DNA of 50,897 nucleotides. It comes from Gammaproteobacteria bacterium. Its GTDB lineage: Bacteria > Pseudomonadota > Gammaproteobacteria > GCF-002020875. The position numbers and the translations under genes were made by a program. Where the stretch lies: assembly GCA_013349825.1 (NCBI GenBank), contig DUYW01000002.1, forward strand, positions 5 to 50,901. The letters are read 5' to 3'. Positions 4,931 to 43,410 of the stretch are shown in pieces; the first letter of the stretch is position 1; the number at the start of each line of letters is the position of its first letter. The notes under the pieces were generated by a model that searched no databases, was not told the origin of the DNA, and saw only the letters and a program-made list of their open reading frames with translations.

Positions 4931-4939
4931 AACGGTCAT

Positions 4940-5271
4940 TACTCCTGACAGCTTTTTGGAAAGGGCGCATTGATACCAGATTGGATGGGTTCTGGCAACA
5001 TCTTCTGCACTGATCTAGTAAAGTTACCTTAAAAAAGGGCTATTTTACAGTATCCACCGGCAGTTCACCGTTCAAACTGATGAAAAATGAGGCAGTGATC
5101 CCGGAGGTTTTGTTCAATGTGGTGAGACAATAGGTTTTGGTAAAATGGGTGAATTTTGAGAGTGTAGTCAGGGTGTTTTTTGTGAGAGCTACCTTTTGAC
5201 CAACTGTTTTACTATACTACTGAAGGATTAAGTTTAGTAACAGTGATTGTAGATAATTAGGAGATGAGTCG
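4940..5271. other. 332-bp intergenic region between dksA and cbbY
   Basis: Divergent upstream region of dksA (minus) and the CbbY gene (plus). It must hold promoters for both, but I could not pick a convincing -35/-10 pair. TTGACC at 5196 and TATACT at 5213 are only 11 bases apart, too close to work together. There is no open frame worth calling and no clear hairpin. Confidence 0.5.
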
Positions 5272-28290: not shown

Positions 28291-29562
28291 ATGTCGATTA
28301 TAGAAGATGAGTTAAGGCACACTTTGGCAGATGAGTTGAGACACACCTTGGCATTAGTCTTGGCGGGAGGAAGAGGGAGCCGTTTAAAACAGTTAACGGA
28401 AAAAAACTCCAAACCAGCAGTCCCTTTTGGAGGGAAGTTCCGGATTATCGATTTTCCACTCTCTAACTGTGTAAACTCAGGAATCAAGAAGATCGCGGTG
28501 CTGACGCAATATCGTGCGCACTGGTTGATTCTGCACCTGCAACGAGGGTGGAATTTTCTACGTCCGGCAATGAAGGAGTTTGTTGAAATTTGGCCGGCAC
28601 AGCAGCAGACCAACAAGGAGAGCTGGTATCTCGGTACTGCAGATGCAGTCTCCCAAAATATGGAGGCAATCACCTATCACCGACCACGTTATGTGCTGAT
28701 TCTGGCGGGCGATCATATCTATAAGCAGGACTATGCCCGTATGCTGGCAGAGCATGTGGATAATGGGGCAGATGTAACGGTCTCTTGTTTGGAAGTGAGT
28801 TGCAACGAGGCAACTGCATTTGGAGTAGTGGATGCAGATAATGATGAGCAGATTATAGGTTTTGTTGAAAAACCGGAAGATCCACCGACCATACCAGGGG
28901 ATCCTGACCACTCCTTCGTGAGCATGGGGATCTACATCTTCAATTACGAAATCTTGATGGAGGCACTACAACAGGATGATATGGATGCGGGATCCAGTCA
29001 TGATTTTGGAAAAGATATTATTCCCCGTCTGGTCACCAAATGTAAAGTGATGGCGCACCGTTTTGAGCGTAGCTCAGTCTCTGAGTCGGGTCCTTACTGG
29101 AGAGATGTGGGTACCCTGGATGGTTACTGGGAAGCCAATATTGATCTGACGACCATCAGCCCTGAGCTGGATCTCTATGATATGGAGTGGCCGATCTGGA
29201 CCTATCAACGCCAATACCCAGCTGCAAAGTTTGTTTTCAATAGAGAGGATCGTAGAGGTTATGCAGTGGATAGTCTGGTCTCAGCTGGCTGTGTGATTTC
29301 AGGTGGTGTGGTGGATAATTCACTGCTATTTACCGATAGTCGGGTCAACTCTTATAGTCAAGTGACCGATTCACTACTCTTACCTCACTCCAGTGTTGGA
29401 AGAAATAGCCGAATCAACAAAGCGGTCATCGGCTTTCGCTGCCACCTACCGGAAGGGTTGGTGGTCGGTGAAGATGCTGAGGCGGACTCTGAGCGCTTTT
29501 ATCGTAGTGAGAGTGGTATCACCCTGATTACGGCCTCGATGCTGGAGGATCTGAAGTTGTAA
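28291..29562 (+). CDS. glgC: Glucose-1-phosphate adenylyltransferase
   Basis: GlgC makes ADP-glucose from glucose-1-phosphate and ATP, the committed and allosterically controlled step of glycogen synthesis. The 423-residue protein has LVLAGGRGSRLKQLT, PAVPFGGKFRIIDFPLSNC, YLGTADAV, LILAGDHIYKQDY, FVEKPEDPP and GPYWRDVGTLDGYWEAN, followed by a left-handed beta-helix domain. The N-terminus is odd: residues 6-13 and 14-21 are the same octapeptide DELRHTLA, encoded by an imperfect 24-bp tandem duplication. The N-terminal segment in this family contributes to allosteric control. The gene is divergent from pgi with 174 bp between them. Confidence 0.96.
   Translation: MSIIEDELRHTLADELRHTLALVLAGGRGSRLKQLTEKNSKPAVPFGGKFRIIDFPLSNCVNSGIKKIAVLTQYRAHWLILHLQRGWNFLRPAMKEFVEIWPAQQQTNKESWYLGTADAVSQNMEAITYHRPRYVLILAGDHIYKQDYARMLAEHVDNGADVTVSCLEVSCNEATAFGVVDADNDEQIIGFVEKPEDPPTIPGDPDHSFVSMGIYIFNYEILMEALQQDDMDAGSSHDFGKDIIPRLVTKCKVMAHRFERSSVSESGPYWRDVGTLDGYWEANIDLTTISPELDLYDMEWPIWTYQRQYPAAKFVFNREDRRGYAVDSLVSAGCVISGGVVDNSLLFTDSRVNSYSQVTDSLLLPHSSVGRNSRINKAVIGFRCHLPEGLVVGEDAEADSERFYRSESGITLITASMLEDLKL
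28306..28353 (+). repeat. 24-bp tandem duplication inside glgC
   Basis: Two 24-base units (28306-28329 and 28330-28353) match at 21 of 24 positions. All three differences are synonymous, so both encode DELRHTLA. Confidence 0.9.
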
Positions 29563-29664: not shown

Positions 29665-30171
29665 ATGTTTGTTTTTGTAGCCTTGATGGTGATATGGATT
29701 CTGTTGACCGGCTCGTTACAGTTGGATGAACTTGCAGCCGGAGTATTTGCCGTGACGGCTGTGTCTGTAGTCATGCGGATGTTGATGGGCAGAGCGACGA
29801 CCCCTCCCATCCGTTTTACGCCGATGGCTGTGATTGCACTGATGCGATATCTCTACACCTTTACCATTGCGCTGTTGCGGGCCAATTTGGATATGGCACG
29901 ACGGGTACTGGACCCGCTGCTTCCAATCCATCCTGTTGTCGTGGAAGTTGAGACTTCGCTTCAATCACAGTTAGGACGTTTAATGCTTGCCAATAGTATT
30001 ACCTTGACTCCCGGTACCCTGACGGTTGATTTGAAAGGTGACCGGCTTCTGGTTCACTGGATTGATGGCTCTTCACTCCCCGCAGATCTCACCCCTGAGG
30101 CGCGTTGTCAGCAGGCAACGGAAGAGATTGCGGCACAATTTGAGCGTCATTTAAAAGGTTTTATAAAATGA
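29665..30171 (+). CDS. mrpE: Mrp-type cation antiporter subunit E (MbxA/MbhA-like)
   Basis: 168-residue subunit E of Mrp antiporters, homologous to the first subunit of archaeal Mbh/Mbx complexes. Two hydrophobic segments lie at about 2-40. The family-typical region LMLANSITLTPGTLTVDL is followed by a soluble C-terminal domain (LLVHWIDG...). First gene of the long cluster ending at 41210. Its stop overlaps mrpF by 4 bases (ATGA). Only 102 bp separate it from glgC. No strong promoter or Shine-Dalgarno sequence is evident there. Confidence 0.9.
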   Translation: MFVFVALMVIWILLTGSLQLDELAAGVFAVTAVSVVMRMLMGRATTPPIRFTPMAVIALMRYLYTFTIALLRANLDMARRVLDPLLPIHPVVVEVETSLQSQLGRLMLANSITLTPGTLTVDLKGDRLLVHWIDGSSLPADLTPEARCQQATEEIAAQFERHLKGFIK

Positions 30172-30452
30172 GTTTTTCACTGCTGCAGATGGTTGCACTG
30201 TTGCTGCTGGGTATGGCAGTAATACTGTCTGTGATCCGTTTCCTGATCGGACCCACTACGGCAGACCGTATTGTTGCAGCAGACACGGTTGCAGTGATTG
30301 CGACCGGAGGTATTGTGATGTTAACTCTGATGTTGGAAAGCGCTCTCTATCTGGATCTGGCGTTACTGTTTGGCATGCTCTCATTTATTGGCGTGGTGGT
30401 GCTGGCCCAGGTGATTACAGCGCCAGAGCAAGATCAGCAGGAGACCTCATAA
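30168..30452 (+). CDS. mrpF: Mrp-type cation antiporter subunit F
   Basis: 94 residues with three membrane segments, typical of MrpF/MnhF. The signature RFLIGPTTADRIVAADTVAV is complete. It is a small structural subunit of the ion-translocating module. It overlaps mrpE by 4 bases and ends directly before the GTG of the next gene. Confidence 0.92.
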   Translation: MSFSLLQMVALLLLGMAVILSVIRFLIGPTTADRIVAADTVAVIATGGIVMLTLMLESALYLDLALLFGMLSFIGVVVLAQVITAPEQDQQETS

Positions 30453-30746
30453 GTGAACTTTGTGGGAGATCTTTTCTTGCTGTTAGGGGCACTGTTTACC
30501 TTTCTGGGGGCCATGGGGCTGATTCGCATGCCGGATGTCTATAGTCGGATTCAGGCAGGTACCAAGGCAGTAACTCTGGGGTTGTTGTCGATTTTATTGG
30601 GTGTAGCTCTGCATCAGCCTGAGTGGATTCCAAAGTTACTGATCATCGCCCTCTTTGTGCTGTTGACCAATCCGGTGGGCTCCTCTGTATTGGCCCGTGC
30701 CTTTCTTCGTTCCGGTATCAAGCCGGTTAAAGGCGAGGAGAGATAA
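30453..30746 (+). CDS. mrpG: Mrp-type cation antiporter subunit G
   Basis: 97 residues with three membrane segments. The family signature GLIRMPDVYSRIQAGTKAVTLG is clear, followed by LLTNPVGSSVLARA. Start is GTG 30453, immediately after the mrpF stop. Corresponds to the third subunit (C) of archaeal Mbh/Mbx complexes. Confidence 0.92.
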   Translation: MNFVGDLFLLLGALFTFLGAMGLIRMPDVYSRIQAGTKAVTLGLLSILLGVALHQPEWIPKLLIIALFVLLTNPVGSSVLARAFLRSGIKPVKGEER

Positions 30747-30750
30747 CTGA

Positions 30751-31035
30751 ATGGATGGTTCTCTTTTTATGATCCTTGCTGCACTGCTATTGGTGGTGGT
30801 GATGTTAACTGCTGCGTTGGCAGCCCTGTTGTCAGAGAGTCATCTTGTGGCTGTGGTTTCCCTCTCTATTCTTTCATTGGGGTTGACGTTGCTTTTTGTT
30901 TTATTGAGAGCGCCCGATGTGGCGATGACTGAAGGGGTTGTGGGAGTTGGGCTTAGTAGCCTTATTTTTGCCCTTGCTCTGAAACGATTACGGCTCTATC
31001 GTTCTTCCACTCCTGCAGAGTCATGTGATGAGTAG
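30751..31035 (+). CDS. MbhD-like subunit (MrpA C-terminal piece, DUF4040)
   Basis: 94-residue membrane protein with three hydrophobic segments. LRAPDVAMTEGVVGVGLSS matches the MbhD/DUF4040 region found near the C-terminus of full-length MrpA. Here it is a separate gene, as in archaeal Mbh and Mbx operons. A large MrpA with its NuoL-like N-terminal part is absent, which argues that this cluster is an Mbh/Mbx-type complex rather than a plain Mrp antiporter. It overlaps the next gene by 8 bases. Confidence 0.88.
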   Translation: MDGSLFMILAALLLVVVMLTAALAALLSESHLVAVVSLSILSLGLTLLFVLLRAPDVAMTEGVVGVGLSSLIFALALKRLRLYRSSTPAESCDE

Positions 31036-31744
31036 ATCCAGCCGCTCCATGGAGTGGACTCCTCTGCTGTTTAGCGGGGGGCTGGCGTTCTTCCTGTTTG
31101 CCTTGTTTGCAGTGATTCCTTTTGGTGACACGGCCATGAAAGTGGGGACAATGATTCATCAGCAGGGAGGGGAGTTGGGCGCGGCCAATTTGGTGACTGC
31201 GGTTGTTTTAGGGTATCGGGGGCTGGATACGCTGGGAGAGCTGGCAATTCTGTTTGCCGCAGCAACCTCTGCGGGTCTGGTGCTCTCCAATACCCGGCAG
31301 CGCACAAGAAGTATAAAAAATAAGGGGTTGGGTGAGCTGTTTGAGTCGGCAATCTCTCTATTGATGCCACTGTTACTGTTGGTGGGGGTCTATATTGTCC
31401 TGCATGGTCATCTGACTCCTGGAGGTGGATTTCAGGGGGGGGTAGTGATTGCAGTAGCGCTCTTTCTACCGACACTGGCACGCGGTGAAATGGTCATCAA
31501 CCACCACTTGATCCAGTGGATTGAAGGGGGGGCGGGCGCACTGTTTATCTTGATTGGTGTTGCAGCCTTGATACAGGGGGCTGCATTTCTTCAACCGTTG
31601 ATGGCGGCGGGTGAAGTAGGGCGATTTCTCTCTGCCGGGACACTGCCGGTACTCTATCTATTGGTAGGACTCAAAGTAGGTGCAGAACTTGCTGCGTTGC
31701 TGGGTCACCTTGTGGAGGATGATGAGCCGGGAGTGCAGCAGTAG
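31028..31744 (+). CDS. MbhE-MrpB fusion subunit
   Basis: 238 residues. The N-terminal half resembles MbhE, the last part of MrpA (NLVTAVVLGYRGLDTLGELAIL). The C-terminal half is an MnhB/MrpB domain (LLLLVGVYIVLHGHLTPGGGFQGGVV). In archaeal Mbx/Mbs operons these are usually two neighbouring subunits (E and F), so a fusion is notable, although MrpA/B joins occur elsewhere. About six to seven membrane segments. I use ATG 31028 rather than GTG 31025. It ends in a one-base overlap with the next start. Confidence 0.85.
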   Translation: MSRSSRSMEWTPLLFSGGLAFFLFALFAVIPFGDTAMKVGTMIHQQGGELGAANLVTAVVLGYRGLDTLGELAILFAAATSAGLVLSNTRQRTRSIKNKGLGELFESAISLLMPLLLLVGVYIVLHGHLTPGGGFQGGVVIAVALFLPTLARGEMVINHHLIQWIEGGAGALFILIGVAALIQGAAFLQPLMAAGEVGRFLSAGTLPVLYLLVGLKVGAELAALLGHLVEDDEPGVQQ

Positions 31745-32196
31745 TGTTGGCCGCCATTCTCTATGTAGGTGCAGTTAGTCTGCTGGTCATTGGCTTGGCC
31801 GGCATGTTGCTTTCAAGTCACCTGTTTAGAATGTTATTAGGGTTGGTGATCGCTGAGGCGGGTGCCAATTTACTGTTGGTGTTGGCTGGGTATCGTTGGG
31901 AGTCGGCAGCACCCATTTGGGAGAGTGGTGCCTATCCGCAGCTGATGGTCGATCCAGTCCCGCAAGCGATGGTGTTGACGGCCATTGTTATTGGTGTCGG
32001 CATTCAGGCACTGGCAATCGCATTACTGGTACGTATTCGGCAACAGACTGGTTCACTGCAACGCGATATCGTACGAGAGCAGTTGGAGCAGGACCTTGAT
32101 CTTGAATTGGGGGTCAAATTGCCAAGTTCAATGCACGCCCCGTCAGGAGAAGGGCCGCTGCTGAGCGGGACAAGAGGGGCTGGTAATGAGCAATAG
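31744..32196 (+). CDS. mrpC: Mrp-type cation antiporter subunit C (NuoK-like)
   Basis: 150-residue NuoK-like subunit with three membrane segments and a cytoplasmic tail. Family features are SSHLFRMLLGLVIAEAGANLLL with the membrane Glu in LVIAEAG, and DPVPQAMVLTAIVIGVGIQALAIALLVRI. The start is GTG 31744 overlapping the previous stop by one base (TTG 31747 is possible). Corresponds to subunit G in archaeal Mbh/Mbx. It overlaps mrpD by 11 bases. Confidence 0.9.
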   Translation: MLAAILYVGAVSLLVIGLAGMLLSSHLFRMLLGLVIAEAGANLLLVLAGYRWESAAPIWESGAYPQLMVDPVPQAMVLTAIVIGVGIQALAIALLVRIRQQTGSLQRDIVREQLEQDLDLELGVKLPSSMHAPSGEGPLLSGTRGAGNEQ

Positions 32197-33643
32197 CCTG
32201 GCCTTGGTGATTGCGCTACCACTGCTTGCGGCATTCCTGCTCCAGCCGTTGGCACAACAGTTGGGTGTTGGACGTGAACAACGTTCTGTAGCGATTCAGT
32301 TGTATGCGCAGCTGACAATTGCGGTGACCTTATGGATTACATTGATGTTAGGCAATGGTGTTGAGCAGCAGCCGCTCTCTGTGATGATGGGTGGCTTTTC
32401 AGCCCCGATGGGGATCAATCTCTACCTTGATCGTCTGAGCCTGCTGTTACTGGTTGCAACACAGTTGGCGTTGCTGTTGTTATGGCCGGCTGATGCAACG
32501 CCCCGTATTCATGCATTAATGTTGCTGTTATCAGCCTCCTCTATGGGGCTGGCGCTCTCAGGAGACCTCTTTAATCTCTATGTATTCTATGAACTGCTTG
32601 CGGTCGCAACTTTTGGTCTGGTGGCTGCTAACAGCAGCCGTTCAGCCCCCCTGATCTCATTTCGTTATCTGTTAATCAGTGGGCTGGGGTCGGTCCTGGC
32701 CCTGAGCGGAATTGCGCTGATCTATAGTCATACAGGTAGCCTTAACCTGGCAGATATTTCAGCAACCTTGCAGCATGGAGACGCAGAGTTGCCACTGGCG
32801 GCCTTCATACTGATTCTGTTGGGTATTGGAGTTAAGGCAGAACTGTTTGCAGTTAATGGCTGGGTACCAGAGGTTTATGCCATTATCTCACCCCGGCTTT
32901 CAGCGTTGCTGGCGGGGGTGGTTTCCAAGCTTGCTGTGGTGGTGATTGTTCGCGTGTTATTGATGTTGTTTCCGCATCCTGAGGCCGCACAGGTACTGTT
33001 GGTACTAGGTATTTTGGGTGTGATCAGCGGTGAGCTGGCCGCGTGGAGGGCACAGGATCTGCGTCGTATGTTGGCCTACTCATCGATTGGACAGCTGGGG
33101 ATGATCTTTATTGCCTTCTCTCTCTCTCTGGAATTTGGAATGCTGATGGGGCTGTTGCTCAGTCTGCACCATATGGTGGTCAAGCCCGGACTGTTTATGT
33201 TAACAGCAGGCAAGTCGAAACGTTGGCATATGGCCCTTTTTGTCCTCTTTGCCCTCTCTCTGGTTGGTGTTCCTCCTCTGCCCGGTTTTTGGGTCAAACT
33301 CTCTTTGTTGACGGGGCTGGTCGAGGCGGGGGGGGCGTTGAATCAGTTGGCGCTGATTGTCTTCCTGGGCGCAACGGTGATTGAGGCAAGTTATCTGTTT
33401 CGAGTGTTGCAAAATACACTACCCAATCCACCAGCGGTTGATGAGGGTCATTTGACGGTGGGCTGGAATGGTCTGGTTGGAGTGCTGCTCGGAGGGGTGT
33501 TGGTTGTGACGACCTTGTCAGTTGATCCCGTATTGGAACAGTTAAAACAGATTTCATCTCAGGCCGGGGATCGAAACCTGTTGATTTCAAGCGTCGTTAC
33601 TCCATCCGCTGAACAACAGATGGTTGTGGAGAGAGACAAGTAA
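32186..33643 (+). CDS. mrpD: Mrp-type antiporter subunit D (NuoM/N-like)
   Basis: 485-residue antiporter-like subunit with about fourteen membrane segments. Ion-path residues are visible: Glu in NLYVFYELLAVATFG, Lys in GIGVKAELFAVNGWVPEVY, the YSSIGQLGMIF helix, and the His-Lys pair in LHHMVVKPGLF. It keeps the full set expected for a proton- or sodium-conducting subunit. Corresponds to subunit H of Mbh/Mbx. The stop overlaps the next start in a TAATG junction. Confidence 0.92.
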   Translation: MSNSLALVIALPLLAAFLLQPLAQQLGVGREQRSVAIQLYAQLTIAVTLWITLMLGNGVEQQPLSVMMGGFSAPMGINLYLDRLSLLLLVATQLALLLLWPADATPRIHALMLLLSASSMGLALSGDLFNLYVFYELLAVATFGLVAANSSRSAPLISFRYLLISGLGSVLALSGIALIYSHTGSLNLADISATLQHGDAELPLAAFILILLGIGVKAELFAVNGWVPEVYAIISPRLSALLAGVVSKLAVVVIVRVLLMLFPHPEAAQVLLVLGILGVISGELAAWRAQDLRRMLAYSSIGQLGMIFIAFSLSLEFGMLMGLLLSLHHMVVKPGLFMLTAGKSKRWHMALFVLFALSLVGVPPLPGFWVKLSLLTGLVEAGGALNQLALIVFLGATVIEASYLFRVLQNTLPNPPAVDEGHLTVGWNGLVGVLLGGVLVVTTLSVDPVLEQLKQISSQAGDRNLLISSVVTPSAEQQMVVERDK

Positions 33644-35508
33644 TGGAGATCAATACGCTCGATTTGTTGGCTCTGATCTCCCTGGTTACCGTAGCAACGG
33701 CACTATTAGTGGGTGGTCAGGGGCGGGGAGGGTGGCAGTTGTCGCTGCTTTATCTGCTGCAATTAGTCGTTGTAGCCTCAATGGTGATGATGGCTGGTGG
33801 TGAAGGGATCATCTCTACACTACAGTTTTCAACTGTTGGAGAATCGATTGGCTGGAGACTGGATGGGCTGGGGCTCTATTTTCTGTTAATTACTGTGGGT
33901 ACAGCGGCTTTTGTCTCATTCTACATGGCCGGTCCCTGGGGGGAGGCGTATCAGCGTGATGGAGGCTCCCTGCGCTGGTTACAGGTAGCGCTAGCGACCA
34001 ATGTATTTACCATGTTGTTACTACTGGCCAGCGGTGATCTGCTCTCACTCTTTATTGGTTGGGAATTGGCGAGTTGGGCAGCCTTCTGGATGATGGCGTT
34101 GGCGGGAGGAATAGCACTGAAGGTGGCTCTGCGCTACCTGATCTATGCAATGGTGGGTGCGATGATGGTATTTGCACTGATTGTGATTCTGTATGGTCAA
34201 GCAGGATCTTTTGGTTTTGATGAGATACGTGAAGCCTCTGTACAGATGGAGCGTGGTACCACAATTCTTGTATTGCTACTGACTGTTGCAGGTTTTGGTA
34301 TCAAAATGGGGCTGCTCCCCTTTCATCTGTGGCAGGCTCCGGCATATGCGGAGACACCGGGACCCGGTTCCGCTTTTTTAGGAGCAATCTCCTCCCGCCT
34401 AGGGCTGTTTGCCATTCTTCTGGTGTTGTTTAGGGTGGTTGATGGGGCCTGGATTGAGCTCTATCTGGGCTTTATGAATCCACAGACGCTACTGGCCTGG
34501 ATTGCGGTAGCAACCATTATCTTCCCAACCTTTACTGCGATGCGCCAGAATGATGCACGTCAGTTGCTGGCCTGGCACGGGATTGGTCAGGGTGGTTATA
34601 TGCTGCTCGGTATTGCGATGATGGATCCGTTGGGGGTGGCGGGAGGGATGCTCCATATCTTCAACCATGCAACCTATCAGGCAGCCCTTTTTCTGGCGGT
34701 GACAGCGGTGATCTACCGTACTCAAACTTCGGATTTGAACCACCTTGGAGGGTTGGTGGTGCGTATGCCGCTGACGTTTGCAACCATGCTGGTGGGGATT
34801 ATCGGCCTTGCAGGGTTGCCACCAATGAATGGTTTTGTCTCAAAATGGTTGGTCTACCGCTCTCTTTTGGAGCAGGGGGAGGTGCTGCTGTTTGTCGGTG
34901 CGGTGATTGGAACGCTGGGTACCATTCTGTCGGTCTATAAATTACTTCACAACACCTTCCTCGGCTCTCTTCGTCTGGAACATCAAGCGGTACGTGAAGT
35001 CCCCATCACTATGTGGATGCCCATGATTCTGCTCTCAGGACTGATTCTGTTGACCGGTATCTTCCCCGGAGTCCCATTGCAGTGGGTTGCGGAGGCCGCA
35101 GCGTCAATTGGGTTGCCAATGCCGCAGTTCAATCTGGGCGGAGTGATTGCTGAGGGTGGCAGTCTCGATATGCGGGTTATTAGCGGTGTACTGTTGAGTG
35201 GCTTTGCCATTGCCGCGCTGATTTTCTATGGCGCAGGTTCAAGTCGTCGTGTGAATCCACTGGATAATTATGCAGGAGGACACTTCCTCTATGCGAGTAA
35301 CCGCTACCACTACAGCAATAATTTTTACGCAGGGTTGATGCATTTGATCAAGCCTTGGTACCGGGGGATTTTTGAGCGACTAGAACAGATTATACTGCTG
35401 TTATTGGCCGTTATCGCCGATCTGCTACAGGGGCTCTATCTACAGCGACAACCGGGGAGAGTGGCTCTGGTTGTGTTGGTGCTGCTACTCTGGTGGAGCA
35501 CACTATGA
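33643..35508 (+). CDS. Second antiporter-like subunit (MbxH'/HyfB-like)
   Basis: 621 residues with about fifteen membrane segments, related to NuoL/M and to the second MrpD-like subunit of archaeal Mbx/Mbs complexes. Conserved sites are Glu in SLFIGWELASWAA, Lys and His in GIKMGLLPFHLWQAPAYAETPGP, and WHGIGQGGYML. In the broken helix where most relatives have HAxxKAxLF it reads NHATYQAALF, so the ion-path lysine is Gln. A long C-terminal region (from about 540) carries RVNPLDNYAGGHFLYASNRYHYSNNF, as in Mbh-type subunits next to the NuoH-like protein. ATGA overlap with the next gene. Confidence 0.88.
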   Translation: MEINTLDLLALISLVTVATALLVGGQGRGGWQLSLLYLLQLVVVASMVMMAGGEGIISTLQFSTVGESIGWRLDGLGLYFLLITVGTAAFVSFYMAGPWGEAYQRDGGSLRWLQVALATNVFTMLLLLASGDLLSLFIGWELASWAAFWMMALAGGIALKVALRYLIYAMVGAMMVFALIVILYGQAGSFGFDEIREASVQMERGTTILVLLLTVAGFGIKMGLLPFHLWQAPAYAETPGPGSAFLGAISSRLGLFAILLVLFRVVDGAWIELYLGFMNPQTLLAWIAVATIIFPTFTAMRQNDARQLLAWHGIGQGGYMLLGIAMMDPLGVAGGMLHIFNHATYQAALFLAVTAVIYRTQTSDLNHLGGLVVRMPLTFATMLVGIIGLAGLPPMNGFVSKWLVYRSLLEQGEVLLFVGAVIGTLGTILSVYKLLHNTFLGSLRLEHQAVREVPITMWMPMILLSGLILLTGIFPGVPLQWVAEAAASIGLPMPQFNLGGVIAEGGSLDMRVISGVLLSGFAIAALIFYGAGSSRRVNPLDNYAGGHFLYASNRYHYSNNFYAGLMHLIKPWYRGIFERLEQIILLLLAVIADLLQGLYLQRQPGRVALVVLVLLLWWSTL

Positions 35509-36401
35509 TGGTTGTCGATCTGTTGATTGAGCTATTGCTGATGCCGTTGGTCGCTTTTCTGGTTGGCTTGGTGATGGTGTTATGGATGCGTCGTTTGGGA
35601 GCCAGGATTCAACGCCGGGTAGGACCTCCGTTTTTACAGCCACTCTATGATGTGGTGAAACTGTTTGGCAAAGAGACGCAGATTTCTCATGGCGTACTGC
35701 ATGATATTGGCATCATTATGGCGATGGGTGGCTATATTGCAGCGGAGACCCTGTTGCCGGTGCCTGGAATGGATGGTGTGGCCGCCTATGGAGGCATCAT
35801 TACCCTCACCTATCTGATGATGATCCCATCCTTAGGGCTTGCGTTGGGCGTTGGGCAGTGCGCCAACCCGAATGGTTCAATCGGTATCTCACGTGCATTG
35901 ACTGCGATGCTCGCTTATGACGTTCCATTCGTGATTGTGGTTTTTGGTGTGGCTTATCACGCAGGAAGCGCTAATCTGATTGAGATTATCGATGGGCAGC
36001 AGCAGGCGGGGGTTGCAGGGTGGGGGCTGTTTGAGATGCCGCTATTGGCAATTGCCGGACTGATTACGCTGCAAGGATCACTGGGTAAACAGCCTTTTGA
36101 GGTCTATGTGGCCCCGGCGGAGATTGCAACCGGGCCAATGGTGGAGATGGGGGGGAAATATCTAGGGGGGCTGTTTGTGATGCAGGCCTTCCAGTTCTAT
36201 ACGGCAACAGTTTTATATGTATCGCTGTTTCTGGGCGGAGGAACAAACTGGATTGATCTGCTGTTGAAAAGTTTTCTGGTACTCACCATTCCGGTGAGTG
36301 TTGCCTACCTGTTTCCCCGGTACCGCACTGAGGATCTGGTAAGGCTGCTTTGGAAGTGGCCGGTTATGATTGGATTATTGGGGGTGGCATTTGTCGTCTA
36401 G
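35505..36401 (+). CDS. NuoH/HycD-like membrane subunit (MbxM-like)
   Basis: 298-residue subunit with about eight membrane segments, the link between membrane arm and peripheral arm in complex I and group 4 hydrogenases. RRLGARIQRRVGPPFLQPLYDVVKLFGKE is the signature first loop; the conserved acidic loop reads KQPFEVYVAPAEIATGPMVE. It is closer to HycD/MbhM (about 300 residues) than to NuoH in length. ATG 35505 gives an ATGA overlap with the previous stop and has GGAG upstream. A GTG at 35493 is also in frame. Confidence 0.9.
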   Translation: MMVVDLLIELLLMPLVAFLVGLVMVLWMRRLGARIQRRVGPPFLQPLYDVVKLFGKETQISHGVLHDIGIIMAMGGYIAAETLLPVPGMDGVAAYGGIITLTYLMMIPSLGLALGVGQCANPNGSIGISRALTAMLAYDVPFVIVVFGVAYHAGSANLIEIIDGQQQAGVAGWGLFEMPLLAIAGLITLQGSLGKQPFEVYVAPAEIATGPMVEMGGKYLGGLFVMQAFQFYTATVLYVSLFLGGGTNWIDLLLKSFLVLTIPVSVAYLFPRYRTEDLVRLLWKWPVMIGLLGVAFVV

Positions 36402-37050
36402 TAATGGAAATATTTTGGCGCGCGTCTTTGATGAGTTGACCCGCTTCTGTCAGGCGCGTTCACTTTTTATCCTCCACTACTGTACGGGGTGTGGTGCGAT
36501 TGAATTGCCTCCTGTGATGACCTCGCGCTTTGATATGGAGCGACTCGGGGTCTCACCGATGGTGACACCCCGTCAGGCAGATATTCTGCTGATCACCGGA
36601 TATGTCTCGATCAAGACCTTGAAACGGGTCATGCTCACTTATGAGCAGATGGGTAGTCCCAAATATGTGATTGGGATCTGCTCTTGTACCGTCAATGGTG
36701 GAATGTATTGGCAAAGCTATGCTACAGCCAAGAAGCTGGATGAGTATCTTCCGGTGGATCTCTATATTGCAGGTTGCATGCCTCGTCCGGAGGCGGTGAT
36801 CAGTGGTCTGAGAACGTTAATGGGCAGGATTGAGCGAGGAGAGGCGGAGAGCTGGAAAGAGTATTATCAAAATTATGATTACTATCTGGGTAATCAGCAG
36901 AAACTGTTTGGTGATCAGTGGCAGACTCCGGTTGATGTGATTGGCGAAGCAGAACAGTATCAGTTGCTGGGGCCGGGTACCCTGGGTGAACATACCGAGT
37001 TATTGGTCAAGGCACAGCACCCTCTGCAGCCACTGGAGATGCGGTTATGA
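36391..37050 (+). CDS. NuoB/MbxJ-like iron-sulfur subunit
   Basis: Small [4Fe-4S] subunit (about 219 residues) that holds the proximal cluster, N2 in complex I. Cysteines are placed as in group 4 hydrogenases: HYCTGCGAIELPP (CxxC, unlike the adjacent CC of true NuoB), GICSCTVNGGM and AGCMPRPEAVISGL. The cluster is thus probably bound. A C-terminal extension of about 60 residues (from YYQNYDYYLGNQQKLFGDQ) is unusual for the family. The most likely start is TTG 36391, with GGGGGTG upstream, which overlaps the previous stop; TTG 36370 is also possible. ATGA overlap with the next gene. Confidence 0.85.
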   Translation: MSSSNGNILARVFDELTRFCQARSLFILHYCTGCGAIELPPVMTSRFDMERLGVSPMVTPRQADILLITGYVSIKTLKRVMLTYEQMGSPKYVIGICSCTVNGGMYWQSYATAKKLDEYLPVDLYIAGCMPRPEAVISGLRTLMGRIERGEAESWKEYYQNYDYYLGNQQKLFGDQWQTPVDVIGEAEQYQLLGPGTLGEHTELLVKAQHPLQPLEMRL

Positions 37051-37691
37051 GTCTGGATGGTTTTACCCCCTGGTTACAGGCCTTGACGCAACGTATCGAG
37101 GGGTTGGTGATCAGCGGCTCAGATCTGGAGAAGCGTCGTACCCGGATTGATCTGCCTGCGGATCACCTGTCGAGCTTGTTGGAGGCGGCAAAAGGGGAGT
37201 TTGGCTTTGTCCATCTCTCGGCAATCTCCTGTGTGGACTGGATTGATGTGGGGGAGTTTGAGTTGGTTTACCACCTCTGGTCCTATGAGCAGAACCAATT
37301 ACTCTCGATCCATATTCGTGTGCCCAGAGAACCGGGACGTTACCAGTCCGTGGTGGATCTCTATCGTCCTGCCGGTTTCTTTGAGCGGGATATTCATGAG
37401 ATGTATGGCCTCTACTTTGAGGGGGCACTCGATATGGAGAAATTTATCCTGACCGAGTGGAACGGACCACCACCGATGCGTAAAGAGTTTGATAGTGAAG
37501 CCTTTGTTGAAGAGACCTTTAGCTGGCAGGAATACAATCCGCAATGGTTGCAAGAGATTGTTGCAGCAGGTGGTGGAGTCGTCACACCGCCTTCACAACA
37601 GCGCTTCAGTCAGCGTAAAGGCATAGAGGCACCCTGGGGCGCCGAAGCGAGACGTCCATTGAGTGATGAAAATACGGAGGATCAGCGGTGA
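37047..37691 (+). CDS. NuoC/MbxK-like subunit
   Basis: 214-residue peripheral-arm subunit of the 30-kDa NuoC family, which scaffolds the NuoB- and NuoD-like proteins. FVHLSAISCVDWIDVGEFELVYHL matches the usual fold start, and YRPAGFFERDIHEMYGLYFEG is the family signature (normally ANWxERExxDxxGxxF). A C-terminal tail of about 50 residues is variable. ATGA overlap with the previous gene; GTGA overlap with the next. Confidence 0.88.
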   Translation: MSLDGFTPWLQALTQRIEGLVISGSDLEKRRTRIDLPADHLSSLLEAAKGEFGFVHLSAISCVDWIDVGEFELVYHLWSYEQNQLLSIHIRVPREPGRYQSVVDLYRPAGFFERDIHEMYGLYFEGALDMEKFILTEWNGPPPMRKEFDSEAFVEETFSWQEYNPQWLQEIVAAGGGVVTPPSQQRFSQRKGIEAPWGAEARRPLSDENTEDQR

Positions 37692-38830
37692 GAGCAGAAA
37701 ATTACCAGGCGATCAACCATCCACCGAGTCACGCCTTTGAACTCAATTTTGGCCCCAACCATCCGGGTATTGAAGGCAATTATGCGCTGCAGGTGAAGGT
37801 AGAGGGGGATACCGTGGTGCAGGCTCATGCCGATGGGGGATACCTCCACCGCGGATTTGAAAAGTTGATGGAGCAGCGACTGTGGATCCAGAATATTGCA
37901 CTGGTTCCACGGATCTGTGTACCCGACCCCTCTCCTATGGAGGTCTGCTACTCGATGGCAGTGGAACAGATTGCAGATATCGAGGTGCCAGAACGGGCGC
38001 AGTGGGTGCGAGTGCTGCAGCTGGAACTTTCGAGGATTGCGGCTCATCTATTCACCTTTGGTGGACATGCGGCAACCACGGGGATGTACAGTCCAATGTT
38101 CTGGGGAGTGGCAGATCGAGACCTGATTCTGGATCTGTTTGAGGAGTTTACCGGGGGGCGTGTCTACAGTATCTATAACCTTCCGGGAGGTGTGCGGCGT
38201 GAATTACCGGAAGGTTTTTTGCAACGGGTAAGCAAGATGATGGACTATATTGAGTCTCGTCTTCAGGATTATGATGACCTCTTCTTTGCCAACCGGGTCT
38301 TTGTGCGTCGAGCCAAGGGGGTGGGAGTTCTGCAGCAGGCAGAGGCGCTGGAGATGGGGGTCACCGGCCCTAATCTGCGAGCGACCGGACTGCCCTTTGA
38401 TGTGCGCAGAGATGACCCCTACCTGGTTTACGAACAGCTTGATTTTGAAGTTCCGGTTGAAGAGGCGGGAGATGCCTGGGCGCGAACTCTGGTGCGCCGT
38501 GCGGAGTTGGTCGAGAGTCTTAAAATTGTACGTCAAGTGGTCAAGGCACTGCCCGATATTGGTGGAGCACTGCGTAGTGAAATACCCAACCCTCTGGCGT
38601 GGAATGTTCCTGCCGGTGAAAGCTATGCACGGGTGGAATCCTCTAAAGGGGAACTGGGCTACTATGTGGTATCGGATGGTGGTGAAAAGCCATGGCGCGT
38701 CCATGTTCGTGGCCCCTCATCGATGCATGCGGTACAGGTGCTGGAGTCACTGGTCACTGGAGGACGGATTGAGGATGTGGCGCAGACCATGTTCTCGTTA
38801 GATGCCTGTCCTCCGGAGGTAGACCGGTGA
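37688..38830 (+). CDS. NuoD/MbxL-like large subunit with half-lost NiFe motifs
   Basis: 380-residue catalytic-type large subunit. FGPNHPGIEGN, GYLHRGFEKLMEQR and the RIAAHL helix place it in the NuoD/NiFe large-subunit superfamily. The two NiFe sites are each half kept: Cys77 in PRICVPDPSPMEVCYS (first position of RxCxxC, with Asp80 in the second), and Cys374 in SLDACPPEVDR (first position of DxCxxCxxR, with Glu377 in the second). A functional NiFe centre needs four cysteines, so hydrogenase activity is unlikely. True NuoD proteins normally lack both cysteines, so this is nearer the Mbx/Mbs/Ehr groups. Start GTG 37688, with GGAGG upstream. Confidence 0.9.
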   Translation: MRAENYQAINHPPSHAFELNFGPNHPGIEGNYALQVKVEGDTVVQAHADGGYLHRGFEKLMEQRLWIQNIALVPRICVPDPSPMEVCYSMAVEQIADIEVPERAQWVRVLQLELSRIAAHLFTFGGHAATTGMYSPMFWGVADRDLILDLFEEFTGGRVYSIYNLPGGVRRELPEGFLQRVSKMMDYIESRLQDYDDLFFANRVFVRRAKGVGVLQQAEALEMGVTGPNLRATGLPFDVRRDDPYLVYEQLDFEVPVEEAGDAWARTLVRRAELVESLKIVRQVVKALPDIGGALRSEIPNPLAWNVPAGESYARVESSKGELGYYVVSDGGEKPWRVHVRGPSSMHAVQVLESLVTGGRIEDVAQTMFSLDACPPEVDR

Positions 38831-38878
38831 ACAGGTTGTGTAAGTGCTTTGGTGCGATTATCTGTTCAGGAGGACGCT

Positions 38879-40693
38879 ATGGTTAAGTATGATGATGAAG
38901 GTAGCCTGCTGCGTCCCCTGCGTGCGCTCTCCTTTCTGACAAAACCTGCAATCACTGAGCCATTGGTACCTCGTCCGGCAGCAGAAGGCTATCGTGGTTT
39001 TCACCTCAATGAACATCAGCGCTGTGTAGGTTGCAGTAGCTGCCAGAAGATCTGTGATAATGCTGCGATTACCATGATCGAAGTCAGTGAGTTAGCGAAT
39101 GATAAACTCAACGGTATTCGCAATCTGCGTCCAGCAATTGACTATGGTCGCTGTTGCTGGTGCGCACTCTGTGTTGATATCTGTCCAACCGGATCGTTGT
39201 CACTCTCCAAGGAGTATGTCCACACCTGTACTCAAGAGGATATTGATAGTTATTTTATGATGCCTGGTGAGGTGGGGATGCATGGCACCTTTGTTGGCAA
39301 AGGGTGGCAGAAGAGTGAAACCTCTGACCTGCTGGACCTGCAGCGCAAACCGATGGGTGAACGTCCGGCAGCGCAGCGTATCGATAGTTTTGATGAAATT
39401 GTTAATGGGTTTAGCGCACAACAGGCGGAGGCAGAGGCCTCACGTTGTGTACAGTGCGGCATGTGCCATGATGCCTGTCCGACCGGGATGGATGCACCTG
39501 AGTATATTCGCTCTATTTTTGAGGGTGAACTGGAGCAAGCGGTACGTTGGATCTATCAGACCAACCCCTTCTCTCATGTCTGTGGCAGAGTTTGTACCCA
39601 CCGTTGTGAAGATGCCTGTTCAATCGGAGTGCGAGGGACTCCATTGGCTATCCGTTGGCTCAAGCGGTATGCGATGGATCATGTCTCCCATCAGCGTGTT
39701 TTACAGATTACTCAAGAGCAGAAACCCTCTCACTTATCCGCGCGCAAGATTGCTGTAGTGGGTGCAGGCCCTGCGGGACTGACTGCTGCGTGGGATCTGT
39801 CGCGTATGGGGCACCAGGTGGTGGTTTTCGAGGCCCGTAAAAATCCTGGAGGGATGCCACGTTATGGGATTCCGGAATACCGACTTCCTTATGAGATGCT
39901 GGATCGGGATATCGAGGTGATTACAGCGATGGGGGTGGAGATCCGTTGTGGTGTAGAGATTGGTAGTGAAATCACGGTGGATCAGCTGCATCAAGAATAT
40001 GATGCTGTGGTGCTGGCGATTGGCCTTCATCTGGGACGCTCCACCCGCATACCCGGTTCAGACCATGAACATGTGAAAAAAGCGGTGGATCTACTGCGTC
40101 AGGTTACCGATGAGGGGAGTATTGAGGTACCTCAGGAGGTGGTGGTGATTGGGGGGGGGAATGTGGCGATGGACATTGCCCGAACCGTTGCACGGATGCA
40201 GAAGCAGCAGTGGGGTGAGGTACGCACAGTGGTAACTGCATTGGAGGATCAAGAGAATTTTCTGGCAGACCCGGAAGAGGTTCGAGAGGCTGCTGAAGAG
40301 GGGGTGCTGATCTGCCCGTCTCGGGGACCTCAGGCCTGTGTGATCGAAAATGGCCAATTGCAGTCACTGAAAACCTGGGGAGTCTGCTCAATCTTTGATG
40401 AGTCAGGTCGTTTTGCGCCCCACTTTGATGAAAACGATGAGCAGTGCCATGCAGCGGGAATGGTGATTGAGGCAATTGGTCAAATGGCTGATTCAGAAAT
40501 TCTGCTGGGAGATGAAATTACAGAGAGACTGGAGTGGAATCGAGGTCGATTGCAGATTGATGAAAATTGCAGAACTTCAGAGTCTTGGCTATGGGCCGCA
40601 GGAGACTGTGTGAATGGGCCTGATGTGGTCCATGCAGTTGCCGACGGACATCGAGTAGCATCCAGTATTGATGAGGTATTGAAACATGCGTGA
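38879..40693 (+). CDS. Ferredoxin-flavoprotein fusion: NuoI/MbxN-like plus GltD/SudA-like oxidoreductase
   Basis: 604 residues, from an ATG with a strong AGGAGG upstream. Residues about 40-110 hold two [4Fe-4S] sites of NuoI/MbxN type (Cys49-52-55-59 and Cys92-95-98-102). Residues about 180-250 are the dicluster domain that precedes GltD-type flavoproteins (Cys190-193-196-200; Cys235-239-243-247). From about 290 there is an FAD fold (AVVGAGPAGLTAAWDL), the GGMPRYGIPEYRLP segment, an NAD(P) fold (VVVIGGGNVAMDIA, near 425) and the closing FAD motif LWAAGDCVNGPDVVHAVADG. GltD, NfnB and SudA use such domains to move electrons between NAD(P)H and ferredoxin or sulfur compounds. Here it replaces the ferredoxin subunit of an Mbx-type complex, so NAD(P)H is a likely partner. 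Confidence 0.92.
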   Translation: MVKYDDEGSLLRPLRALSFLTKPAITEPLVPRPAAEGYRGFHLNEHQRCVGCSSCQKICDNAAITMIEVSELANDKLNGIRNLRPAIDYGRCCWCALCVDICPTGSLSLSKEYVHTCTQEDIDSYFMMPGEVGMHGTFVGKGWQKSETSDLLDLQRKPMGERPAAQRIDSFDEIVNGFSAQQAEAEASRCVQCGMCHDACPTGMDAPEYIRSIFEGELEQAVRWIYQTNPFSHVCGRVCTHRCEDACSIGVRGTPLAIRWLKRYAMDHVSHQRVLQITQEQKPSHLSARKIAVVGAGPAGLTAAWDLSRMGHQVVVFEARKNPGGMPRYGIPEYRLPYEMLDRDIEVITAMGVEIRCGVEIGSEITVDQLHQEYDAVVLAIGLHLGRSTRIPGSDHEHVKKAVDLLRQVTDEGSIEVPQEVVVIGGGNVAMDIARTVARMQKQQWGEVRTVVTALEDQENFLADPEEVREAAEEGVLICPSRGPQACVIENGQLQSLKTWGVCSIFDESGRFAPHFDENDEQCHAAGMVIEAIGQMADSEILLGDEITERLEWNRGRLQIDENCRTSESWLWAAGDCVNGPDVVHAVADGHRVASSIDEVLKHA

Positions 40694-41210
40694 AGGGGAT
40701 TCCGATAAGAGAGAACGCCTGCAGCAGGCGAAGAGTTTGGCTGAGGTATTGGAAGTTGCGATCCTGTTTGAAGAGGCAGCGGCCAATTTCTATCAACTGC
40801 AATTGGAGCGGGTGAGTAAACCACTGCGTTGGCTGTTGGAGTCCTTGGTGGATGAAGAGCGTCAACACAGTGCGAAATTGCAGGCACTGCGTGATGATCC
40901 TGTATTCGAAGAGCAGCTGGAGACACGTATAGAGGTGTCTCCAGTTGATCCTCAATTTTCAGATGCGATACAGATTCAAGCACTGGATGAAATAGTCGAT
41001 GACCAGGCAATTTTACAATACGCTCTGGGGCGGGAACAGTTGGCAATGGATCAATACCGAAAACTGGCTGAAATGACCGAGGAAGGCGTCATACAACAGC
41101 TATTTCAGTGGTTGGCGGATGAAGAGTTGCACCATAAAGGGTATTTGGAACGGCGCTACTATGAGTTGGTGCATCGTGGAGGTGGAGCTTCCTCTCGCTA
41201 CGACTTCTGA
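40686..41210 (+). CDS. Ferritin-like diiron protein (rubrerythrin type)
   Basis: 174-residue four-helix protein with the ligands of a diiron site: Glu29/30 in LFEEAAANFY, Glu58xxHis61 in DEERQH, Glu117 in GREQLAMDQY and ExxH in DEELHH (146-150). There is no rubredoxin CxxC domain, so it is an erythrin-like variant. Such proteins reduce peroxide or respond to oxygen. Its ATG lies 8 bases inside the end of the flavoprotein gene, so the two are coupled and it is the last gene of the complex operon. It may protect the oxygen-sensitive clusters; this is inference. Confidence 0.85.
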   Translation: MREGDSDKRERLQQAKSLAEVLEVAILFEEAAANFYQLQLERVSKPLRWLLESLVDEERQHSAKLQALRDDPVFEEQLETRIEVSPVDPQFSDAIQIQALDEIVDDQAILQYALGREQLAMDQYRKLAEMTEEGVIQQLFQWLADEELHHKGYLERRYYELVHRGGGASSRYDF

Positions 41211-41247: not shown

Positions 41248-41454
41248 CTATTCAGTGTTGCTCTGATTTGAGGTGCGTTCATAACCCCTTTTTTTGGGTC
41301 CAGAAGGGCTGTTCTTATCTGCACTGCTGAAGCGGAAGCGCCCAGCCAGCACACACCCTTTCATGCCGGGGTCACACAACACCTCAGGAGTCGAAGCTTG
41401 AGTAATCTTCTGACAGACTCCGTTGGCATCATGTGGGCAGCCCCAGCCCCCCAT
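41248..41454 (-). CDS. Small four-cysteine protein coupled to a secreted low-complexity protein
   Basis: 68 residues, no signal peptide. The first half carries WGCPHDANGVCQK and VLCDPGMKGCVLAGRFRFS, with Cys6, Cys14, Cys27 and Cys34, a spacing that could bind a metal or FeS cluster. The second half is basic and disordered-looking. I recall similar CPH...CDPGMKGC proteins in sulfur-oxidising and related proteobacteria, without a known role. The ATG overlaps the stop of the gene at 41454 (TAATG), which supports that it is real. Confidence 0.65.
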   Translation of the reverse strand: MGGWGCPHDANGVCQKITQASTPEVLCDPGMKGCVLAGRFRFSSADKNSPSGPKKRGYERTSNQSNTE

Positions 41455-42179
41455 TACTGTTCGTTCTGGAAGTACTTACGGTAGCGTTTCGGACGTTTCT
41501 TGTCACGCATCTTGAAATTTTCAGGTAATAACCAGCTCTGGTCACCAACCTGTTCACCAATTTCGAAGGGGCTTGGCATAGAGATGTTAGGAAGTTCCCA
41601 GCCACCCGGCATTCTCGGGGCATCGGCCAGGAAATCTTCGGCCTCATGGAAGGCTTCGTCGGGTGGGTCAGAGAACTTGCCGGAGTCACCCCAGGGTGCG
41701 CCAGGCTCCCAAGGCTTGTAGTGCCATGGATTGCCGGTGCCAGGCACTGGCCAAAACTTCATGGGACTCATATCAAGGTTTTTATTATTTCCCCAAGGTG
41801 GCTCCATAGAGGGCGGATTGAAAGAGGGGTTAAAGGAAGGGGCATTATATTGGTTAGAGCCAAACTGTGGTGCCTGATAACCCATCGGTGGGCCATAGGG
41901 GTTTGCACCGGGCATTCCATAAGGCGCTCCATAAGGTGTTCTGTTTTGTGGTGGGGCCATACCATAAGGGTTTGGCCCATAGGGCATGCCACCCTGCTGA
42001 GGCATCATTCCATAGGGAGAGGGCATCATTGCCGGGTTAAAAGGCATTGGAGCAGACTGCTGCGGTGGCCTTTGTTGAGAGGCAGGGTTATTGTACCCCA
42101 TATTATCGGCTGCAATTGCAGGGCTACAAGCAGAGAGAACCACTGCGGCAAATGCAATTTTATTGTATGTTTTATTCAT
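41454..42179 (-). CDS. Pro/Met/Tyr/Gly-rich secreted protein, sulfur-globule-envelope-like
   Basis: 241 residues. A signal peptide ends SPAIA before ADNMGYN; an alternative lipobox LSAC (Cys18) within it could make this a lipoprotein. Residues 24-125 are repeats of YG, PYG and MP units (MMPQQGGMPYGPNPYG, GMPGANPYGPPMGYQ). Residues 125-240 are more globular with Trp-rich patches (PVPGTGNPWHYKPWEPGAPWG) and a basic end. The repeats look like the coat proteins of sulfur globules, but it is not a close paralogue of the genes at 7885 and 10898. A promoter is visible upstream, and translation continues into the small Cys-rich gene. Confidence 0.75.
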   Translation of the reverse strand: MNKTYNKIAFAAVVLSACSPAIAADNMGYNNPASQQRPPQQSAPMPFNPAMMPSPYGMMPQQGGMPYGPNPYGMAPPQNRTPYGAPYGMPGANPYGPPMGYQAPQFGSNQYNAPSFNPSFNPPSMEPPWGNNKNLDMSPMKFWPVPGTGNPWHYKPWEPGAPWGDSGKFSDPPDEAFHEAEDFLADAPRMPGGWELPNISMPSPFEIGEQVGDQSWLLPENFKMRDKKRPKRYRKYFQNEQ

Positions 42180-42281: not shown

Positions 42282-42326
42282 TTCAATTGATTTATTGAGT
42301 GGGTGTTTTGTAGAGGACTATTTAGA

Positions 42327-42737
42327 GTGAGGAAGCCAACTGTTTTTCAGGAATACCATTTTGAGGTTAAACCTTCATCCGTTCCAGAGTGTGGTCTGGG
42401 GTTGTTTACAACGATAGCCTTGAGAAAAGGAGATACTGTTGGCCCTTATCTGGGGCAGATTATTAGCGACGCGCAGTCTGAAACGGAACCCTATATCGAT
42501 TCACACTACCTGCTTTGGCTCTGCACAGATTATTTGATTGTAGGAGAGAACTACACCCGATACATCAACCATGCGGCAGAGCCTAACGTACAGTTTGTAG
42601 TCTCCACACGTTGGAAAAAGGCCCGTGTTGAAGTGTTGAATGAGATTGCACCAGGGAGTGAGATTTTTCTCGATTATGGCCCGGATTTTTGGGAAATGGC
42701 AGATATCGCCTGTATCAGTTCCAGCCCCTCTGAGTAA
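42327..42737 (+). CDS. SET-domain protein
   Basis: About 136 residues forming a single minimal SET domain, the fold of protein lysine methyltransferases. Motifs are GLGLFTTIALRKGDTVGPYLG at the start, RYINHAAEPNV (the usual NHxCxPN), then EVLNEIAPGSEIFLDYGPDFW (the usual GEELxxDY). The residues that bind AdoMet are recognisable. There are no pre- or post-SET cysteine clusters. Bacterial SET proteins of this size are scattered and often acquired; their targets include small basic or ribosomal proteins. I chose GTG 42327, with AGAGGA upstream, over GTG 42303. Confidence 0.82.
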   Translation: MRKPTVFQEYHFEVKPSSVPECGLGLFTTIALRKGDTVGPYLGQIISDAQSETEPYIDSHYLLWLCTDYLIVGENYTRYINHAAEPNVQFVVSTRWKKARVEVLNEIAPGSEIFLDYGPDFWEMADIACISSSPSE

Positions 42738-42762: not shown

Positions 42763-43410
42763 TTAGTCGAGCGTGACATTGATCACAACGGCCCCCATCA
42801 ACTCATCCATTTTGAATACTTTGCCAGAATCAATGCCATCTGCGGAGCGTTGTTTTTTGATTGAGGCGCGTTTCTCCCAAGCGTTGTGACAAGTGACACA
42901 AGGGGCAACAGAGCCAACATCAGCACTGAAATAGCGTAAGGTTTCTTTACCATCGATGGTTTCAGTTTGTGTGTAAGGCCTCCAGGGGATGGCTTTGAGG
43001 TCTCCGCTCCAGCTGTTCTGCTGATTAACAAGAGAGTCCCAACCGGCACGCTCAAAATCATCTTGCAACCCCTGATTCGGATTGAGATTCCAAAGACTGC
43101 GAAGCCCTACCGTAAAGCGACCTTTGGCATCTTTGGGTTGTATGGCATCGACTTTTTCAGAGATATGGGTCACAAACTGTGCTGGAAGTGGGACAAAACC
43201 CTTTAATTTATGGCTGTTCTGTTTGGCGCCTTTACCATCTTTCTTCAGTTTTTTGACGACTTTTCCGGTATACATGGAACGGGTTGCTCGAATCATCAAA
43301 TCAACAGCCTTGGCAACAGCTGTTGCCTTGTCGACGCTGGCAGGCTCAACGGCGTGTAGAGGGGATGAGGTCAGAGCAATAACAATAGTCAGTAAAGTAA
43401 TTCTCTTCAT
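42763..43410 (-). CDS. Periplasmic haem-binding DUF3365 (Tll0287-like) protein
   Basis: 215 residues with a signal peptide (MKRITLLTIVIALTSSPLHA). The rest fits the DUF3365/Tll0287-like domain, a PAS-like fold with one c-type haem. The haem site is CVTCH (Cys171, Cys174, His175), and the GLRSLWNLNPNQGLQDDFE and ETLRYFSADV segments are typical. Such proteins are thought to sense redox state or gases, either alone or as parts of kinases; here it stands alone. AAGGAGAG precedes the ATG. It converges on the SET gene with 25 bases between stops. Confidence 0.85.
   Translation of the reverse strand: MKRITLLTIVIALTSSPLHAVEPASVDKATAVAKAVDLMIRATRSMYTGKVVKKLKKDGKGAKQNSHKLKGFVPLPAQFVTHISEKVDAIQPKDAKGRFTVGLRSLWNLNPNQGLQDDFERAGWDSLVNQQNSWSGDLKAIPWRPYTQTETIDGKETLRYFSADVGSVAPCVTCHNAWEKRASIKKQRSADGIDSGKVFKMDELMGAVVINVTLD

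Follow-up and report, generated by a model that had tools for sequence, protein, structure and literature searches.

The open reading frame at 37688–38830 (+) of the window, by which we mean the whole 50,897-nucleotide stretch of contig DUYW01000002.1 analyzed here (assembly GCA_013349825.1, a member of the Gammaproteobacteria), likely encodes the large subunit of an MBS/MBX-type complex with a vacated NiFe site and open-cluster sulfane chemistry, in what appears to be a sulfur-oxidizing bacterium. The pairing of one cysteine with one acid in each former NiFe motif is an already known mark of the MBS family and not new, since MbsL C85 and C385 of Pyrococcus furiosus have been published as the two cysteines that remain of four NiFe ligands, the other two being absent (PMC7684303, of which we draw on parts). 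What is newer is an NAD(P)H module built into the complex and a sister lineage that is without the leftover cysteines.

A large subunit with a probably vacated NiFe site

Translation from the GTG start gave 380 residues and no internal stops, with the motifs RIC77VPD80 and DAC374PPE377VDR (residue 77 Cys, 80 Asp, 374 Cys, 377 Glu). An earlier note on this DNA had described both motifs and the replacement of the second cysteine of each CxxC by an acid (residues 80 and 377), and translation together with a check of the individual residues confirmed it on both points. The replaced cysteines we take to be those bridging Ni and Fe in hydrogenase numbering, and the two retained ones are presumably the terminal Ni ligands of hydrogenase structures. 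The two intact NiFe-binding CxxC motifs of group 4 [NiFe] hydrogenases (MBH, Hyc) are not present; as in MBS and MBX, the first cysteine alone is kept in each. MBH and formate hydrogenlyase (6cfw_L, 7z0s_E) share with the window protein the superfamily and the first cysteine of each CxxC, but differ from it in both second cysteines and at the position of Glu21 in MbhL, all of which are replaced in the window protein, so that no NiFe site is expected there.

Among solved structures the protein was most similar to MbsL (6u8y chain L, 396 bits; best complex I subunit 266 bits), and the sulfane-reductase family (MbxL/MbsL), which had been proposed earlier for comparison, proved to be the right place to look. 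The sequence identity is 51% to MbsL (184/364), 41% to Nqo4, 37% to the NuoD of the same genome, 30% to MbhL and 27% to HycE. The MbsL motifs read RICVPEP and LDNCPPDIDR; the acids are Glu then Asp, exchanged relative to Asp then Glu in the window protein. A maximum-likelihood tree (40 rows) placed MbsL, the clade of the window protein (clade I) and a second bacterial clade (clade II) in one group apart from NuoD (100/99); the branching order within it was not resolved, and the tool gave a long-branch warning. The window protein reads Glu29, Val78 and Gly30 in place of the quinone residues His38 and Tyr87 (Nqo4) and of Glu21 (MbhL), all three of which are also reported missing in MBS (PMC7684303).

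The fold is shared with NuoD/Nqo4 of complex I, and both Pfam PF00346 and NCBIfam NF004739 name the protein NADH-quinone oxidoreductase subunit D. When an AlphaFold model (built with 29 sequences) was compared to the PDB, its core aligned with complex I chains and related NDH chains, and 6u8y was not among the 50 matches listed, which does not count for or against an MBS-type identity; the motifs were of low confidence in this model (pLDDT below 50 at residues 46–84 and 358–380), too low for a Cys77–Cys374 distance. It is nevertheless highly improbable that the protein is an ordinary NuoD from a second NADH:quinone oxidoreductase. It missed the cut-off of TIGR01962 (NuoD; 359 vs 459 bits), NuoD has neither cysteine and carries the quinone His38 and Tyr87 that are replaced here, a separate NuoD grouping with complex I is encoded on another contig of the genome, and the partner subunits are of MBS type. 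The earlier description of the pattern as neither hydrogenase nor NuoD stands for the protein itself and for the N-terminal motif, but not for the C-terminal motif, which is set apart from NuoD by its cysteine only, as Asp or Glu occupies the Glu377 position in Nqo4, the Yarrowia 49-kDa subunit and the NuoD of the same genome. An acid at this position was found in all three aligned complex I sequences with a C-terminus, and being common to complex I it is not peculiar to the MBS-type family.

Operon architecture and the fused flavoprotein

Thirteen genes in MBS-like order run head to tail over 29665–40693; most of them overlap, no gap between neighbors exceeds 18 bases, and a ferritin-like gene overlaps the end of the last (Table 1). 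Their content is that of MBS/MBX, comprising an Mrp-like arm, two large antiporter subunits and a NuoH-like anchor, with the small Mrp subunits recognized by order only; the labels MrpC, MrpB/DUF4040 (30751–31035), MrpE, MrpF and MrpG are our assumption from Mrp gene order. For five of the proteins (L, J, H', K and M) the best PDB match was a chain of the MBS structure 6u8y. Compared with the 13 subunits given in the parts of the MBS report used here (6u8y; PMC7684303), the gene content and order are alike, as are the 51% identical large subunit, the cysteine and acid at both motifs, the MbsJ-type cysteines and the absence of quinone and hydrogenase residues. The window operon is unlike MBS in the fusion of NuoI to an NfnL-like flavoprotein, in the ferritin-like gene that follows, and in its hosts, which are dsrA-carrying bacteria.

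Table 1. Genes of the MBS-type operon and its terminal ferritin-like gene, with the basis of each assignment.
Feature	Position	Strand	Basis or remark
MrpE-, MrpF-, MrpG-like	29665–30171, 30168–30452, 30453–30746 (29665–30746)	+	Conserved order
Small membrane subunit, MrpB/DUF4040-like by position	30751–31035	+	Conserved order
MrpB-like	31025–31744	+	Profile search
MrpC-like	31744–32196	+	Position and conserved order
MrpD/MbsH-like antiporter subunit	32186–33643	+	NCBIfam antiporter subunit D, NuoN-type models
Second antiporter-like subunit, MbsH'-like	33643–35508	+	Best PDB match 6u8y_X
MbsM/NuoH-like membrane anchor	35493–36401	+	Best PDB match 6u8y_M
Small subunit, MbsJ/NuoB-like	36370–37050	+	Listed from TTG 36370; TTG 36415 fits MbsJ start better
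MbsK/NuoC-like	37047–37691	+	Best PDB match 6u8y_K
Large subunit, MbsL/NuoD-like, 380 aa	37688–38830	+	Best PDB match 6u8y_L; Cys77, Asp80, Cys374, Glu377
NuoI::NfnL fusion: MbsN/NuoI-like 2x[4Fe-4S] and NfnL/GltD-like flavoprotein	38849–40693	+	FAD, NAD(P)H, two more 4Fe-4S motifs
Rubrerythrin/ferritin-like, operon end	40686–41210	+	Pfam PF02915; paired E and ExxH conserved

The gene order was common to both clades wherever the locus was long enough, with two small Mrp genes swapped in L054. In the operon comparison L053 and L054 showed no ferritin-like gene (L055 ends too early to show it). Promoter-like sites in the operon region numbered six, fewer than the shuffle mean of 11.1, and none is claimed. 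At one locus (L056 of genome G640, 4653–5792) the large subunit gene is interrupted by a single in-frame TAA and the ferredoxin portion of the fusion protein does not align, as would be expected if this copy has decayed or if the assembly is wrong here.

The MbsN-like domain is present in the operon, but as part of a flavoprotein instead of a separate subunit: residues 16–135 of the fusion protein match MbsN (6u8y_N), and most of the remainder corresponds to NfnL/GltD-type flavoproteins. The protein scored approximately 794 bits against NCBIfam NF010590 (PRK13984) over nearly the whole model, below the cut-off of 946, and is, judged by this match, a diverged relative. With an NfnL-like flavoprotein attached to NuoI, the complex probably takes up or releases electrons as NAD(P)H. 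Where the NfnA reference has YRRS..EMPA, clade I and five of the seven compared clade II rows read ALED..F(L/M)ADP or similar, and L053 and L054 keep YRRR..DMPA; given how NADPH is bound in this fold, most members may be NADH-preferring, and these two NADPH-preferring.

MBS homologs have already been recognized in bacteria, in Thermotoga (PMC9431562) and in a deep-branching bacterium (PMC10356935), to go by the parts of these papers considered. The MBX of Thermotoga maritima is compared with the window operon here through the description in that paper (PMC9431562). A further published homolog, the putative Mrp-Mbx of the Riftia symbiont (PMC11636981, in part), has a sulfur-oxidizing gammaproteobacterial host, and the loci compared here include relatives of such symbionts. 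In the passages considered, neither of these two reports speaks of the cysteine pattern or of a flavoprotein fusion. No description of the fused flavoprotein or of the cysteine pattern in gammaproteobacteria was found in the open-licence literature.

Conservation of the leftover cysteines in two clades

The loci compared came from named relatives (16 loci; a frame-broken fragment, L018, was left out) and from scans of the class, phylum and order; one contig scan yielded close relatives, and relatives outside Pseudomonadota entered the comparison through PDB sequences only. In clade I, Cys77 and Asp80 are kept in 37/37 loci, and Cys374 and Glu377 in all 36 that have the C-terminus (35 by pattern plus L048 with TLDACPPEVDR; L073 is cut off). 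The earlier note had made its reading depend on conservation of both cysteines in close relatives, and in clade I this conservation is complete. The codons are mixed, with 20 TGT and 17 TGC at position 77 and 26 TGT and 9 TGC at position 374, so that both cysteines look held by selection and not recently copied. The total conservation within clade I argues for some role of these cysteines.

In clade II (12 loci, 46–51% identical), position 374 is Tyr in 12/12 loci and position 77 is Cys in ten and Ala in two (L053 and L054), whereas Glu is found at both position 80 and position 377 throughout (12/12 each). Taken over both clades, the acids at 80 and 377 are more constant than the cysteines at 77 and 374. 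In the order of genome G218, 15 of 24 genomes hold a copy (loci L065–L078), nine from clade I (one truncated) and six from clade II, and none has both. That members of one family carry either version, never both, suggests that the two are interchangeable, as if one replaces the other.

A probable open proximal cluster and possible roles of the leftover cysteines

The NuoB-like small subunit is closest to MbsJ (6u8y_J, 4.8e-66 in the PDB search) and has the MbsJ-type motif (C25xxC28, C93, C123): numbered from 36370, its Cys38 and Cys41 align to MbsJ C25 and C28, and Cys106 and Cys136 to C93 and C123. The motif YCTGCGA(I/V)E with two downstream cysteines was found in 35/37 clade I loci and not in the available DNA of L056 and L071. 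The first of these cysteines, a non-ligand in MBS, is Gly in clade II in all ten loci in which the motif was found (L074 and L078 excluded), and the three cluster-ligand cysteines are kept in both clades. Variable dispensable thiols next to three constant cluster cysteines match the prediction of the open-cluster model. The loss of Cys374 together with the first NuoB cysteine, which perhaps happened once, is suggestive and does not count as independent statistical evidence.

That model comes from MBS, where the proximal [4Fe-4S] cluster, held by only three cysteines (MbsJ C28, C93 and C123), was proposed as the catalyst because ferricyanide almost abolished activity and iron brought it back (PMC7684303). 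In the parts of this report considered here, three [4Fe-4S] clusters are described and no metal is named at C85/C385, the leftover cysteines lie approximately 12 Å from the proximal cluster, and both the MbsL C85A/C385A and the MbsJ C25A variants show wild-type-like activity with dimethyltrisulfide (PMC7684303). The mutants were assayed as the cytoplasmic subcomplex with dimethyltrisulfide and not with polysulfide and ion pumping (PMC7684303), which still allows a role of the leftover cysteines in binding or coupling. Comparison with MBS makes the open proximal cluster of the NuoB-like subunit the more likely reactive element, sooner than Cys77 and Cys374, and the sister lineage, which lost leftover NiFe cysteines and kept the three-Cys cluster, can be viewed as a natural experiment in line with the MBS open-cluster mechanism.

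The earlier note had offered two roles for the pair of thiols and carboxylates, binding of a different metal or sulfane-sulfur chemistry, and neither is supported. A new metal site (e.g. Fe, Zn or Ni) replacing NiFe could draw on the descent of the four residues from an old metal site, their invariance in clade I and the same kinds of residues in MbsL. We judge it very unlikely in view of the MbsL precedent, with no metal named in the parts of the report considered and an active double mutant (PMC7684303), and of the sister clade, where the same operon is without Cys374 at 12/12 loci and without Cys77 at 2/12; the C-terminal acid is in addition common to NuoD, which has no such thiols. Sulfane-sulfur chemistry at Cys77 and Cys374 is made unlikely by the same active double mutant and clade II losses, and by the three cluster cysteines that are kept. 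Somewhat less improbable than a new metal site, though still doubtful, is that Cys77, Cys374 and small-subunit Cys38 form a persulfide-holding relay needed in vivo and not in the published assay. The three are wholly conserved in clade I and present in MbsL/MbsJ, clade II has lost Cys374 jointly with the NuoB cysteine, and the distance of about 12 Å to the proximal cluster would suit it (PMC7684303); against this, the MBS single mutants and the double mutant retain activity (PMC7684303), the joint loss may be one event, and the occurrence of either clade, never both, in 15/24 genomes suggests interchangeability.

Occurrence in dsrA-carrying bacteria and possible direction

Large-subunit matches at E <= 1e-95 were found in 17/369 genomes of the window's class, 14 of clade I and three of clade II, and at E <= 1e-85 in 6/398 genomes of its phylum. 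The class of G373 had four carriers among 48 genomes, all four already in the set, and the order of G015 is represented by one genome in the sample. A plasmid collection gave only matches below 60% identity to the query, the first-ranked at 38.5%. A dsrA gene above the cut-off is present in 112/369 genomes of the class, in 14/14 clade I carriers and in two of the three clade II carriers, while G264, the remaining one, has a partial hit; the enrichment is significant whether clade I is taken by itself or all carriers are counted (Fisher's exact test, ~3e-8), among genomes that are related. The findings put an MBS-type complex that brings its own NAD(P)H module into sulfur bacteria, with relatives in tubeworm symbionts and in Thiocapsa. 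DsrE is a mark of sulfur oxidizers. In the window's own genome two contigs carry both dsrA and dsrE, with a 663-aa open reading frame nearby that has NfnL-like matches, and RuBisCO is present; together these are consistent with an autotrophic sulfur bacterium of the oxidative kind. This genome (G000) has three dsrA copies above the cut-off, on C33, C35 and C95; on C33 and C35 the dsrA, dsrE and 663-aa NfnL-like frame have equal scores, and these look like redundant assembly contigs.

In the preferred reading, an MBS-type complex with a vacated NiFe site, both bridging cysteines would have become acids and both terminal-ligand cysteines would be left over, probably lying near the hydrophobic chamber without being the catalyst. 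Electrons would pass between NAD(P)H and the proximal [4Fe-4S] cluster, one iron of which lacks a cysteine ligand, by way of FAD and the 4Fe-4S chain. In the hydrophobic chamber this iron would break or make the S-S bonds of polysulfide or persulfide, and the reaction would be coupled to the passage of H+/Na+ through the Mrp-like arm.

In vivo, the complex could either reduce stored sulfur anaerobically or use ion flow to reduce NAD(P)+ with electrons from sulfane sulfur. Run forward, with NADH as donor and sulfane sulfur as acceptor, it would span approximately 60 mV, a small energy step, and could permit O2-free respiration of stored sulfur. For MBS, by comparison, 41 kJ per 2 electrons is given (PMC7684303). 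The reverse would yield NADH cheaply from sulfane sulfur. In the Riftia symbiont the direction is listed as unknown, and the putative Mrp-Mbx genes share network neighbors with the rTCA and not the Calvin cycle, as stated in the part of the study considered (PMC11636981). Speculatively, and with low probability, the complex may run in reverse in dsr-carrying gammaproteobacteria, ion flow through the Mrp-like arm driving electrons taken at the open cluster from sulfane sulfur or sulfide directly to NAD(P)+, bypassing quinones and giving CO2 fixation a low-cost reverse electron transport, with Cys77, Cys374 and small-subunit Cys38 holding a persulfide and the sister clade doing without them. Operation in reverse would, if it occurs, bear on the NAD(P)H supply of sulfur oxidizers.

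Genes flanking the operon

Directly upstream of the operon lies a gene (28291–29562, +) which we take to encode a glucose-1-phosphate adenylyltransferase-like protein of glycogen synthesis; a match was also found beside the operon in L004 and not at the other compared loci. On the downstream side, 41454–42179 (−) encodes 241 residues rich in proline, glycine and methionine and without a Pfam match at 0.001, followed by genes for a SET-domain protein (42303–42737, +) and a Tll0287-like protein (42763–43410, −).
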